A DNA stretch of 64,000 bases, taken from positions 996,001 through 1,060,000 of the forward strand of contig NZ_CP137157.1 in NCBI RefSeq assembly GCF_040581405.1, given 5' to 3'. The notes under the pieces are model-generated. The model worked only from the letters and a program-made list of their open reading frames with translations, searched no databases and was not told the DNA's origin. Origin of the DNA: Komagataeibacter sucrofermentans DSM 15973 (GTDB lineage: Bacteria > Pseudomonadota > Alphaproteobacteria > Acetobacterales > Acetobacteraceae). Position numbers and translations under genes: made by a program. Positions 25,800 to 29,115 of this stretch are shown here, one piece after another (the stretch's first letter is position 1; the number at the start of each line of letters is the position of its first letter).

Positions 25800-27266
25800 T
25801 CAGCGCCATGCGCTGACGGCTTCAAGCCCCGTGCGCAACAGTTGCGCCGCCCGTTCGGGGCTGGCGGCCTCTACATACACGCGCAGTTCCGGCGCATTGC
25901 CTGACGGGCGGAGGTGAATGACCTCGCTGTCCGCAAAGGTCATGCGCAGGCCATCGGTTTCATCCACATGGGCCAGCGGGCCGCAGGCTCCGGTCAGACC
26001 CAGCGCGTCGGCCCCCTGTGCCGGGTTGCGGCGCAGGGCGGCAATATGGGCGGCACTCTGCTCGGTGGGCATGTCCTTCAGCCGGTCGCTCAGCGTAAAG
26101 CGGCGGGGCAGGGAGGCGACAAGCCCGGCAAGGTCGGTGCCCGTCTCGCGCGCGGCCACGAGCGCGCAGATCATGGGCAGCACGGAATCCCGCGTGGGCA
26201 GGGCCGCCAGCGTGCGCTCCCCGCGCGTGACCGGGCTTGCCAGCAGGAAGCCGCCATTGGCTTCATATCCGACCGAGGGTTCATGCCCATCGTGTGCTGC
26301 CTGCGTCATGGCCGCGACCACGTAGGGCGAGCCGATGCGCGTGCGCTGCACCGTATGGGCAAAGCCTGCCTGTTCCAGCGCCGTGTTGCTGCTGACCGGG
26401 GTGGCCACGGCACGGGCGGCCAGAAACCGCGCGGCCAGAATGCCCAGCACGTCGCCGCGCAGCCAGGCGCCGTGCCGGTCGGCCAGCAGCGGGCGGTCGG
26501 AATCACCATCGGTGGTCAGGATGCCGTCCAGCGTGCCATCGGCAGCCCACTCCCGCGCGAGGGTGGCATCCTCGGGGCGGACGGCTTCGGTATCGACGGG
26601 GATGAAGCTGTCCATGCGGCCGAGGGGCACGGCGGTGGCGCCAAGGGCCTCGACAATCTGCACCAGCACGTCGCGCCCCACGGCAGAATGCTGGTAAATG
26701 CCCAGTTTCAGCCTCGCCAGCGCATCGGCGCCAAAGAAATCACGGTAACGGGCCACGAAGCCGGGCACCACATCTGTCACGGGTGGCAGGTCGGGTGGGG
26801 CGGTCAGCGTGCCTTCGGCATCGAACCAGCCTTCGGGCAGGCTCACGTCAAGCGCGCGCATTGCTGCCTCGTCAGGCTTGAGGAACTCGCCGCGCGCGCG
26901 GTTGAACTTGATGCCGTTGCGATCGGCCGGGATATGGCTGCCCGTAACCATGAGCGAGGGCATGCCGTGCGCAAATGCGTGCAGGCACAAAGCCGGTGTG
27001 GGCACGTAACCGCAAAAGACCGGCACGCCATGCATGTAACGGATCGCGGCGGCACAGGCGCGCAGGATGCGCGGCGTACTCGGGCGCAGGTCCCCCGCCA
27101 CGGCCACGGCAGCACCCGGCGCGAACTCGCCGAGGCTGGCCAGATGCCGCAGATAGCCCACCGTGTAGGCGAAGCAGACCGAATCCTTCATCGCGCTGAC
27201 AAGGCCGCGCGCGCCGCTCGTTCCAAACGCGACACCGGAATGCTGCATCCACTGGGCTATCTTCAT
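25800..27266 (-). CDS. Phosphomannomutase/phosphoglucomutase family enzyme
   Basis: Alpha-D-phosphohexomutase of 488 residues, which interconverts hexose 6- and 1-phosphates for nucleotide-sugar supply. The phosphoserine loop is MVTGSHIPADRNGIKF, a subfamily variant of the usual TASHNP. The metal site is DGDSDRP, and the C-terminal phosphate-binding loop is LRPSGNAPELRVYVE. The start is ATG 27264-27266 (MKIAQWMQHSGVAFGTSGARG); the open frame continues upstream 173 codons into the decayed EAL region and is not coding there. Probable role in exopolysaccharide precursor synthesis; substrate not certain. Confidence 0.88.
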   Translation of the reverse strand: MKIAQWMQHSGVAFGTSGARGLVSAMKDSVCFAYTVGYLRHLASLGEFAPGAAVAVAGDLRPSTPRILRACAAAIRYMHGVPVFCGYVPTPALCLHAFAHGMPSLMVTGSHIPADRNGIKFNRARGEFLKPDEAAMRALDVSLPEGWFDAEGTLTAPPDLPPVTDVVPGFVARYRDFFGADALARLKLGIYQHSAVGRDVLVQIVEALGATAVPLGRMDSFIPVDTEAVRPEDATLAREWAADGTLDGILTTDGDSDRPLLADRHGAWLRGDVLGILAARFLAARAVATPVSSNTALEQAGFAHTVQRTRIGSPYVVAAMTQAAHDGHEPSVGYEANGGFLLASPVTRGERTLAALPTRDSVLPMICALVAARETGTDLAGLVASLPRRFTLSDRLKDMPTEQSAAHIAALRRNPAQGADALGLTGACGPLAHVDETDGLRMTFADSEVIHLRPSGNAPELRVYVEAASPERAAQLLRTGLEAVSAWR

Positions 27267-27305
27267 GGGTTCTTTCTCGCTTCTGGCCAATCCTGCGCGG
27301 ACTTT

Positions 27306-27334
27306 CGCGCCTGCCTGCCGACAACGCAGGCGCG
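27306..27334 (-). promoter_or_regulatory. GC hairpin in the upstream region of the phosphohexomutase gene
   Basis: CGCGCCTGC (27306-27314) and GCAGGCGCG (27326-27334) form a 9-bp perfect stem with an 11-nt loop, 40 bp upstream of the start codon. It could be a leader structure or a relic of the pseudogene. Confidence 0.35.
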
Positions 27335-27369
27335 TGGACAGGCGTTTATACAAACAATCGTGCCCGATC

Positions 27370-27870
27370 GAAGTCCCGCATCCGCCACGCGGGCCAGCGT
27401 GGGGCAGGGGCGTGGCGCAAATAAGGCGGGCCGCCTGCCTGGAGGCGGCAGGCTGGCCTAGGCAGGCAAGCATTGCGGTCAATGTCTCGCCCCCCGCGCG
27501 TTTTCTGAGCATTGTGGAAGGGGCGCTGGCAGGCTCCGGCCTTGCGCCCGCGTGGCTTGAGGTCGAGATTACCGAAAGCATTTTCGTGCAGAGCAGCGCG
27601 GCCAACCGCGACATCGTGCCTGATGATGCGGCACCGGCTATTCCTCGCCGGGCTACCTGTGCCCGTTTTGCTTCCAGAAAATCAGGATCGACCGCGTCTT
27701 TGTGCACGAACCGCCCGGGCGCGGGTTCGCGGGCATCCATCCGCAGTATCATCAGCCTGGCGCAGGGCATGAACATTCCCATCACGGTGGACGCACCTCA
27801 ACGCGTTTGGCTGCAATCAGGTGCAGGGCGGCCTGCCCGGTCGCCCACAGCCATCGGAGAGGGGCCGCCA
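27370..27870 (+). pseudogene. Decayed EAL-domain c-di-GMP phosphodiesterase
   Basis: Fragments in different frames align in order with an EAL domain. First, IRRAACLEAAGWPRQASIAVNVSP, then FLSIVEGALAGSGLAPAWLEVEITES in the same frame. After a deletion of about 15 residues and a one-base loss in the DDF codon, GTGYSSPGYL and FQKIRIDRVFVH appear in a second frame. IRSIISLAQGMNIPITVDA follows in the first frame, and FGCNQVQGGLPGRPQP in another. The EAL motif itself is not intact. No start or full-length frame remains, so it is non-functional. It lies between pmm and metA. Confidence 0.8.
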
Positions 27871-28014
27871 GAGCATCCTGACCCATGCCTGAACGCTGTT
27901 GCTGCTGGCCATATCTGAAAATGCACGGCTGTCGCTGATGGAAACGTGAGCCACGCCGCGTGTCGTGCCGGTGCGTATGGTCTTGCAATCGTAACAGAAA
28001 ACACGTAAAAGCGC

Positions 28015-28098
28015 GGCCTGCATCAGGAGTTGGGGCGACGCCCAACGCCAACCTGCCGTGCCGGGCAAGGTGGCGCTCCCGCAAGGGGGGATGTGGCC
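28015..28098 (+). ncRNA. Structured metA leader RNA, candidate SAM-I-like aptamer
   Basis: Hand folding gives a four-way junction. P1: GGCC-U-GCAUC (28015-28024) with GAUGU-GGCC (28090-28098). P2: GUUGGG/CCCAAC. P3: GCCAACCUGCC with GGGCAAGGUGGC, containing the unpaired A positions. P4: CUCCC-GCAA-GGGGG with a GNRA tetraloop. J1/2 with P1 reads AUCAGGAG, and P3 reads CAACC...AAGGUGGC; the SAM-I core has AUCAAGAG and GCAACC...AAGGUGC. P2 is short and lacks the kink-turn and pseudoknot of SAM-I. It lies 70 bp upstream of metA. Folding is seen in sequence; SAM binding is inference. Confidence 0.45.
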
Positions 28099-28131
28099 AG
28101 GCCGGCAACAAAACGGATCATGCCACGTAGC

Positions 28132-28163
28132 GCGTCATGCCCCTCGTAATTGAGGATGGACGC
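28132..28163 (+). promoter_or_regulatory. Predicted ribosome-binding-site-sequestering hairpin before metA
   Basis: GCGTC (28132-28136) pairs with GACGC (28159-28163), and CCTC (28142-28145) with GAGG (28152-28155). GAGG is the best Shine-Dalgarno sequence for metA. The hairpin sits between the leader RNA and the start codon, as an expression platform for translational control would. Confidence 0.45.
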
Positions 28164-28167
28164 GGCA

Positions 28168-29115
28168 ATGCCCATAAGAATACCCGATGATCTCCCCGCC
28201 CGCGGCACGCTTGAAGCCGAAGGCGTGATGGTGATGGGCGAGACCGACGCCATACGGCAGGATATCCGCCCGCTGCGCATCGGGCTGCTCAACCTCATGC
28301 CCAACAAGATCCGCACCGAGACCCAGATCGCCCGCCTTATCGGCGCAACGCCGCTGCAGGTCGAACTCACGCTGGTGCGCATGAGCGGGCATGTGCCGCG
28401 CAATGCTTCAGCCAGTCACATGACCTCGTTTTACCGGGCGTGGGAGGATGTGCGCAACGCGCGGTTCGATGGCTTCATCATCACCGGCGCCCCCGTCGAG
28501 CGCCTGCCCTTTGCCGAGGTGACCTACTGGGATGAACTGCGCCGCGTGTTCGACTGGACCCTGACCAACGTGCACCGATGTTTCAACATCTGCTGGGCAG
28601 CCCAGGCCGCGGTGCACCACTTTCATGGCATGCCCAAGCACGCGCTCGCCCGCAAGGCGTTCGGGGTGTATGACCACCGCATCCTCGCCCCGACCTCGCC
28701 CTACCTGCTCGGCTTTGCCGATGACCTGTCCATTCCCGTCTCGCGCTGGACGGAGGTGCGGCGCGCCGACCTGCCACGCAACACCGACATGACCGTTCTG
28801 GCCGAAAGCCCCGAGACCGGCCTGTGCCTGCTTGATGATCCGCGGCACCATGCGCTGCACATGTTCAACCACCTTGAATATGATTCCACCTCGCTGGCGG
28901 ATGAATATTTCCGCGATCGCGAGAGGGGGCTCGATATTGCGGTGCCGCACAACTACTTCCCCCATGATGACCCGGCCCTGCGCCCCATCAATCGCTGGCG
29001 CGCGCATGCGCACCTGCTGGCAGGCAACTGGATCAACCAGATATACCAGACCACCCCCTTCAATATTGCGCGGATCGGGCATGAAAGCCGCGGTCCCGTC
29101 CTGGCCTGCGCCTGA
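28168..29115 (+). CDS. metA: Homoserine O-acyltransferase (predicted acetyl-CoA-specific)
   Basis: Activates homoserine for methionine synthesis. 315 residues from [18 protein letters not shown], the standard MetA start. The nucleophile is Cys142 (FNICWAAQA). Residue 111 is Glu (GAPVE), as in Bacillus cereus MetA, which uses acetyl-CoA; E. coli has Gly111 and uses succinyl-CoA. So this enzyme is predicted to be a homoserine O-acetyltransferase. HNYFPHDDP near the C-terminus is family-typical. ATG 28168 is chosen over TTG 28150 and ATG 28156, which add residues not seen in the family. Confidence 0.93.

Follow-up and report, generated by a model that had tools for sequence, protein, structure and literature searches.

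A SAM-I/IV-family leader of metA in Komagataeibacter sucrofermentans and a candidate anti-sequestor formed by its P2 arm

The leader RNA of metA in Komagataeibacter sucrofermentans DSM 15973 is a catalogued riboswitch, and no new RNA class is needed to describe it. Here, we propose, with a probability of roughly 0.7, that this SAM-I/IV riboswitch lowers metA translation when SAM is plentiful, by the exchange of two alternative helices, i.e., helix AP, which would open the base of the aptamer, and helix AS, in which the 5' arm and loop of P2 would take up the tail that otherwise hides the Shine-Dalgarno (SD) site. The riboswitch family is known; what is new is the candidate anti-sequestor made of the P2 5' arm and loop. 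The window is the whole stretch of DNA analysed, 64,000 nucleotides in length, and its features are as follows.

28020..28024, +, P1 5' strand, pairing with 28090-28094 (RF01725 match; 99.2% of P1 cells paired in 53 sequences)
28025..28028, +, J1/2 AGGA of the predicted SAM core (RF01725 consensus alignment)
28029..28046, +, P2 hairpin GUUGGG-GCGACG-CCCAAC (94.4% of cells paired; changes on both sides in 6/6 pairs)
28032..28041, +, P2 5' arm and loop, candidate AS strand GGGGCGACGC (SD-free ensembles, duplexes, permutation tests, growing-RNA folds)
28047..28074, +, P3 with the AA and A irregularities of the predicted SAM site (96.0% of cells paired; loop 28058-28063)
28061..28063, +, PK-2 5' strand CCG (fourth pair lost in the window)
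28076..28089, +, P4 hairpin with GCAA loop (86.0% of cells paired; changes on both sides in 5/5 pairs)
28090..28094, +, P1 3' strand GAUGU (RF01725 alignment; covariation set)
28091..28097, +, predicted AP 5' strand AUGUGGC (5-bp core; T-A/C-G association in a wider set)
28096..28106, +, P5 hairpin (99.4% of cells paired; changes on both sides in 3/3 pairs)
28114..28116, +, PK-2 3' strand CGG (alignment of 53 sequences; 52 metA leaders)
28122..28128, +, predicted AP 3' strand GCCACGU (folding; alignment; wider set)
28132..28143, +, tail GCGUC-AU-GCCCC, 5' strand of the SD hairpin or predicted partner of the P2 arm (folds, duplexes, permutation)
28132..28163, +, SD-hiding hairpin, the sequestor (folding; conservation in metA leaders)
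28152..28155, +, GAGG, the likely SD site (sequence; inside the hairpin stem)
28168..29115, +, metA, homoserine O-succinyltransferase (PF04204, E 8.5e-123)

An Rfam search of the window placed RF01725 (SAM-I/IV riboswitch) at 28015-28122 (+) with 53.7 bits, against a gathering score of 41.1 (E 5.4e-06). Across the 64 kb, the gathering-level Rfam matches are one tRNA and this RF01725, and nothing else; a permissive search of 27700-28500 returned the same match plus five others (E 0.42 to 7.7), all far under their own gathering scores. The genome has a single RF01725 copy, directly 5' of its sole metA, which is also its only PF04204 match and whose start (ATG 28168) was placed via the MPI[RK]IP start common to its relatives. 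The SAM core of the window aligns to the RF01725 consensus both at P1/J1-2 and at the P3 segments CCAACC and AAGGUG. Membership of this leader in the SAM-I/IV family is, in our view, close to certain.

A sequence-only reading of this DNA had left the choice between a compact SAM-I variant and an unrelated new leader RNA, and had named RF00162, RF01725 and RF00634 for comparison. The first choice was right in substance, the variant being the catalogued RF01725, one of the three named families; the second, and with it any new RNA class, is excluded by the RF01725 score together with the aptamer covariation. The part of that interpretation which did not survive is the expectation of SAM-II near metA (see below). 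Three known classes were rejected for the leader. SAM-I proper (RF00162) has no match in the genome at E<=0.001, and P2 is a plain 6-bp hairpin. For SAM-II (RF00521), only RF01725 reaches a gathering score at the leader and the single RF00521 of the genome lies elsewhere. SAM-IV (RF00634) was judged by architecture, i.e., P4 is present and P2 is single in the window, against P2a/P2b with PK-1 and no P4 in SAM-IV; please note that overlapping matches of one clan are represented by the best one alone, here RF01725. SAM would then be the ligand of the predicted riboswitch. That the same scaffold serves a different ligand has hardly any chance: scaffold variants do exist, e.g., for spermidine in rare SAM-I variants (PMC10853860, in the portion available), but the CCAACC...AAGGUGG core agrees with RF01725 and the gene is metA.

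Two alignments were used for the architecture, one of 52 hand-picked leaders out of 73 metA leaders (A1) and one of 53 sequences picked for diversity (A2). In the 53 diverse sequences, P1-P5 together with PK-2 pair in 93.2% of cells with changes on both sides in 21 of 32 pairs; none of 500 shuffles was as high on any of five measures, and slid versions of the structure pair in 37.5-47.3% of cells. The sequence-only reading had looked to conservation and covariation as its test, and the structure shows both. J1/2 AGGA with G28029 reads AGGAG, whose G-A-G is nearly invariant in the same 53 sequences, as are, fully, CCAACC of P3 and, fully or nearly so, AAGGUGG. The strands are 28029-28034/28041-28046 in P2, 28047-28057/28064-28074 in P3 and 28076-28080/28085-28089 in P4, the last being gapped in 6 of the 53 sequences and present in the window. 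P2 of the window is a single 6-bp helix with no internal loop, and the absence of PK-1 was judged by eye.

Much of what the sequence-only reading had described is found in the sequence: a SAM-I-like core with AUCAGGAG and CAACC...AAGGUGGC, P2 as GUUGGG/CCCAAC, P3 with unpaired A residues, P4 with a GCAA loop and, as described below, the hairpin over the ribosome site. Two of its statements had to be given up. P1 had been drawn with 9 bp and one bulge, but the conserved P1 comprises only 28020-28024/28090-28094; the four extra pairs GGCC/GGCC (28015-28018/28095-28098) form in 29, 18, 33 and 34 of the 52 leaders, show no change on both sides, are gapped at the second pair in seven leaders and have a 3' strand overlapping P5, and the long P1 is ruled out by this poor conservation. 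A pseudoknot had been denied, but PK-2 is present and was missed together with P5; the P2-loop pseudoknot of SAM-I type (PK-1) is not part of SAM-I/IV.

PK-2 is the weakest element (81.0% of cells paired, changes on both sides in 2 of 4 pairs in the 53 sequences); misregister of its 3' strand in some rows accounts for part of this. Its three pairs in the window, 28061-28063/28114-28116, are formed in 52/52 metA leaders. The fourth pair, 28060/28117, is formed in 47/52 and absent in the window and in L005 (K. nataicola), where G28060 faces A; the base at this position is U in 36 metA leaders, C in 12, A in 2 and G in the window and L005. As a mark of SAM-I/IV membership, PK-2 is present at the family level and weak in the window. 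Trausch et al. in 2014 are said to have counted PK-2 as part of the switch.

Compared with known systems, SAM-I/IV RF01725 (PDB 4L81) shares with the window the core, a single P2 without internal loop, P4, P5 and a PK-2 joining the P3 loop to the 3' tail; the window differs in that its PK-2 has only three pairs. RF01725 appears as a SAM-I-IV-variant of several phyla without the P2 internal loop in Weinberg et al. 2010 (PMC2864571, available part), and the accessible portion of PMC6890682 gives SAM-I/IV a P4 helix and a P2 that is not split, without PK-1. The window has the ligand-binding core of SAM-I (RF00162; for the SAM-I core, PMC6890682 in part); SAM-I, however, carries PK-1 and a kink-turn in its P2 and lacks PK-2. 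SAM-IV (RF00634) has PK-2 and P5 in common with the window, but carries P2a/P2b with PK-1 and lacks P4 (PMC6890682, again in part). SAM-II (SAM_alpha, RF00521) also controls methionine genes in Alphaproteobacteria, with a fold that differs from the window.

The neighbourhoods of metA were compared in the best 80 of 452 confirmed MetA relatives in named genomes, a set biased toward close relatives of the window MetA; the nearest, 95-97% identical, are from Komagataeibacter. RF01725 lies just 5' of metA in 72 of these 80 nearest loci (17/20, 19/20, 18/20, 18/20), SAM-II (RF00521) in two (L078, L080), and neither at gathering score in six (L014, L016, L018, L021, L050, L055). The statement that alphaproteobacterial metA leaders are mostly SAM-II fails near this gene, where metA usually has SAM-I/IV rather than SAM-II as its SAM sensor. 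In whole genomes, RF01725 was found in 31/200 of the same family, 35/385 of the class and 19/398 of a phylum sample; loci were analysed for 30/32 and 30/39 of the matches from the family and class searches. Within the genus, RF01725 occurs in 10 of 19 genomes and metA in the same 10, i.e., the two are retained or lost jointly, and two SAM riboswitch classes stand side by side, SAM-II in 19/19 and SAM-I/IV in the 10 with metA. The other nine genomes have neither the PF04204 metA nor its riboswitch. The single SAM-II of the window's genome (G000:C1:350093-350173) is located 5' of a PLP enzyme of Cys/Met metabolism, which we take to be metZ-like. In a comparison with L011-L013, L020 and L022, the window MetA (28168-29112) shares 78-80% identity with Sphingosinicella MetA but only 72% with Acetobacter MetA, a pattern which may point to a transfer of metA together with its leader.

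Other genes also follow this riboswitch. RF01725 is found 5' of genes for proteins starting around QFASDNYxGICPE (L098, L101, L103-L108, L110, L145, L148, L149, L151; for L145, L148 and L149 the first bases alone were compared). The one such gene scanned, that of L105, is a Beta_elim_lyase (PF01212), presumably of threonine-aldolase type; to find such genes in the regulon of a SAM riboswitch is unusual. Short proteins of 83-113 aa lie 3' of RF01725 in L088, L092, L094, L096, L128 and L129 and have, by eye, a WTHxYxV-like stretch in common; the three scanned (L088, L094, L129) gave no Pfam match at E<=0.001, and the group is possibly an unnamed SAM-regulated small protein family. In the window, the ORF 5' of the leader (27265-27918, +) resembles by eye a piece of an EAL-domain protein and is possibly a decayed gene.

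Downstream of the aptamer, the hairpin 28132-28163, described already by the sequence-only reading as pairing GAGG and hiding the ribosome site, is present and conserved. It pairs in 77.5% of cells in the 52 metA leaders, versus 33.5-46.5% for slid versions, with changes on both sides in 7 of 8 pairs and 3/500 shuffles as high; the cells with changes on both sides number 14, a count matched by 51/500 shuffles and by several slid versions (13-20). From the end of GAGG to the metA ATG there are 12 nt in the window; across the 67 leaders scored, the distance is 7-15 nt. A search of 27850-28250 turned up no terminator-like site, and intrinsic termination at the leader was rejected on that ground, which makes translation the likely level of control. 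The SAM-I/IV leader of metA is thus very probably a translational switch, presumably in the OFF direction. A translational SAM-I of Xanthomonas resembles this model as an OFF switch hiding the SD, and differs in its full SAM-I aptamer and in an uncharged initiator tRNA reported to free the SD; its anti-SD hairpin is still found without SAM in vitro (all from the available part of PMC7270179).

Equilibrium folding of the 67 leaders gave no general ligand-dependent SD exposure: without ligand, exposure is higher by >0.1 in nine leaders and lower in two. This is what one would expect if the SD hairpin simply stands and SAM binding acts elsewhere, by Rho-dependent termination or mRNA decay, and for Sinorhizobium the accessible part of PMC9373788 reports dual effects of the SAM-II leader of metA. 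The conserved SD hairpin, however, shares a strand with an alternative partner, and we give regulation at another level a small chance.

The predicted full-length minimum-energy fold of the window consists of P2, AP and the SD hairpin, with the ribosome site hidden. In the growing window RNA, P1 is formed at 28098-28120 and then replaced by AP at 28129, the arm:tail helix displaces P2 at 28144-28156, and P2 and the SD hairpin are back once 28163 is made; these folds are model calculations with neither pseudoknots nor ligand. Of the 68 metA leaders, 60 have a P1 of 4 or more expected pairs at completion of the aptamer, and 7 do so with the tail out. With the tail but not the SD out, AP has at least 4 expected pairs in 57 and AS at least 5 in 48 (10.7 in the window); at full length, AS keeps at least 5 in just 19. 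As the full-length fold is closed and AS is lost in most leaders, the ON state would have to be kinetic, and the growing-RNA folds fit a kinetic switch.

Could AP alone make the switch, by exchange with P1, P5 and PK-2, with arm and tail complementary only because each matches the G-rich strand of the ribosome site? Of the two alternative helices, AP is the more strongly conserved, its 5-bp core pairing in 95.3% of cells in the 52 leaders with no change on both sides, and it follows Y/R changes: in 137 leaders, of which 35 are without the downstream motif and 9 without the P1 motif, the Y/R pair is T-A in 71, C-G in 16, T-G in 4 and C-A in 2. The tail, moreover, must match the SD strand anyway. 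Yet the predicted folds contain AP and the SD hairpin side by side, and hence the SD is not freed by AP on its own; the complementarity of the P2 arm, loop included, is leader-specific and exceeds that of swapped arms; and L151 has as its match an AT-rich 11-mer whose sequence differs strongly. We consider this explanation unlikely, and return to the exchange that involves both AP and AS.

When the SD strand was kept unpaired in the alignment ensembles, the 5' strand of the hairpin had one recurrent partner, the P2 loop and 5' arm, at a mean probability of 0.18-0.25 per column pair. In the window, GGGGCGACGC (28032-28041) pairs with GCGUC-AU-GCCCC (28132-28143). Over 68 metA leaders, the mean arm:tail duplex energy is -16.1 for own, -12.4 for swapped and -11.0 for shuffled partners. 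In 60 leaders, the own energy lies under the mean swap, and in 42 the arm does better than shuffled tails (p<=0.05), versus 6, 5, 9 and 1 for four control segments of the aptamer. These 68 leaders, 67 of which were scored for SD exposure, are what remains of 73 after the removal of L002, which nearly duplicates L001, of L046, whose leader is that of L027, and of L015, L019 and L036, in which a long insert precedes metA.

Leader-specific complementarity holds in most groups of the wider collection. Forty-six groups, covering metA and other genes, were assigned manually, using record names and family handles; with one leader from each, the mean duplex energy is -17.69 kcal/mol for own versus -14.78 kcal/mol for permuted pairs, and 0/1000 permutations were as low in each of 200 draws, a test that controls common descent only partly. 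The own pairing is under the mean swap in 37 of the 46 groups, by at least 3 kcal/mol in 26, and above it by at least 3 kcal/mol in one. The mean longest unbroken run is 7.86 against 6.63 when permuted, and no permutation was as high. In 14 held-out loci, own pairs average -15.33 versus -11.22 (0/10000 permutations as low), and the own pairing is better than the mean swap in 11, also without the near-duplicate L148; L140, L147 and L152 pair worse than swaps. The held-out loci were fetched after the idea had formed, being 14 of 19 matches of the phylum-sample search, the remaining five already in use. The tails in the group, held-out and run-length tests are 48 bases long and can include the SD, and none of the three uses L084-L087 or L097, repeats of L005-L009; the group and run-length tests also exclude the five metA leaders removed above. 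Nine of the 46 groups have no advantage (Sphingosinicella, Sphingomonas, Pseudolabrys/SZAS, Inquilinus, L067, f34, f49, f59 and the threonine-aldolase-type leaders), and own and swapped pairings are level in the Nisaea group.

The pairing is kept in leaders with different sequences: GGGAC.. with ..GUCCC in L009, GAGCGGA with UCCGCUC in L040, GGGCUGACGC with GCGUCAGCCC in L113 and L129, and AUGAUUUGACG with CGUCAAAUCAU in L151. The pairing occurs in most of the alphaproteobacterial groups compared; among six members outside the class, it is seen in L153, short matches in L141 and L146, and none in L140, L147 and L152. L141 and L146 have the variant core AGCAACC. In L141, the aptamer is followed by what looks by eye like a terminator, T-run included; GCGACAAA, immediately 5' of that terminator, is matched by the P2 loop.

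Other measures are less favourable. For the window alone, AS is borderline, with 111/2000 shuffled tails as good. At least 9 pairs in the best duplex are reached by 111/120 own and 81% of swapped combinations, which hardly discriminates, and a cluster test on tail 8-mers collapsed to 4 clusters. With fixed alignment columns, 73.9% of AS cells pair, and 81.1% of AS and AP cells jointly, versus never >49.5% in slid versions, but the AS+AP covariation score is not above shuffles (482/500 as high); we attribute this to varying register, bulges and the narrow metA set.

The P2 loop takes part in the matches examined, and an enlarged loop holds nearly all of the L151 match, so loop and tail might instead form a pseudoknot over an unopened P2, a tertiary contact with no anti-sequestor. 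Many matches, however, extend into the P2 5' stem strand, with 10-11 unbroken pairs in L082, L113 and L124, and the tail bases are those pairing in the SD hairpin, so that even such a pseudoknot would still compete with the sequestor. Its chance seems very slight to us. The P2 arm, we believe on the strength of these comparisons and models, probably serves as the anti-sequestor. No P2 anti-sequestor was found in the open-licence literature covered, represented mostly by titles and the starts of abstracts, on the SAM clan, RF01725, anti-sequestors and expression platforms or on riboswitches of Komagataeibacter or Acetobacteraceae, nor in the available parts of PMC10907184, PMC11477058, PMC12452182 and PMC3766115. 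The SAM-I/IV crystal construct has 96 nt and ends at the PK-2 strand (PMC5393176, accessible part), so it could not show arm:tail pairing.

In our model, both AP and AS would be used in the cell. With SAM present, P1-P5 and PK-2 would form and P2 would stay closed, and the tail 28132-28143 would pair with the SD region, i.e., the OFF state; SAM caught in the first transcription interval would keep P1, P2 and PK-2, leaving the tail to the SD. With SAM absent, during transcription, 28122-28128 would form AP with the 3' strand of P1 and the first bases of P5, and thereby open P1, P5 and PK-2. Next, the tail would pair with the P2 5' arm and loop as AS, leaving the SD free, i.e., the ON state.

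Beyond this gene, we lean slightly toward the view that SAM-I/IV riboswitches widely switch by an internal-helix exchange in addition to P1, in which the P2 arm and loop would act as anti-sequestor, or as antiterminator as L141 suggests by eye, and aptamer and platform would coevolve via P2. The arm:tail pairing offers a directly testable mechanism by which a SAM-I/IV aptamer may talk to the ribosome site.
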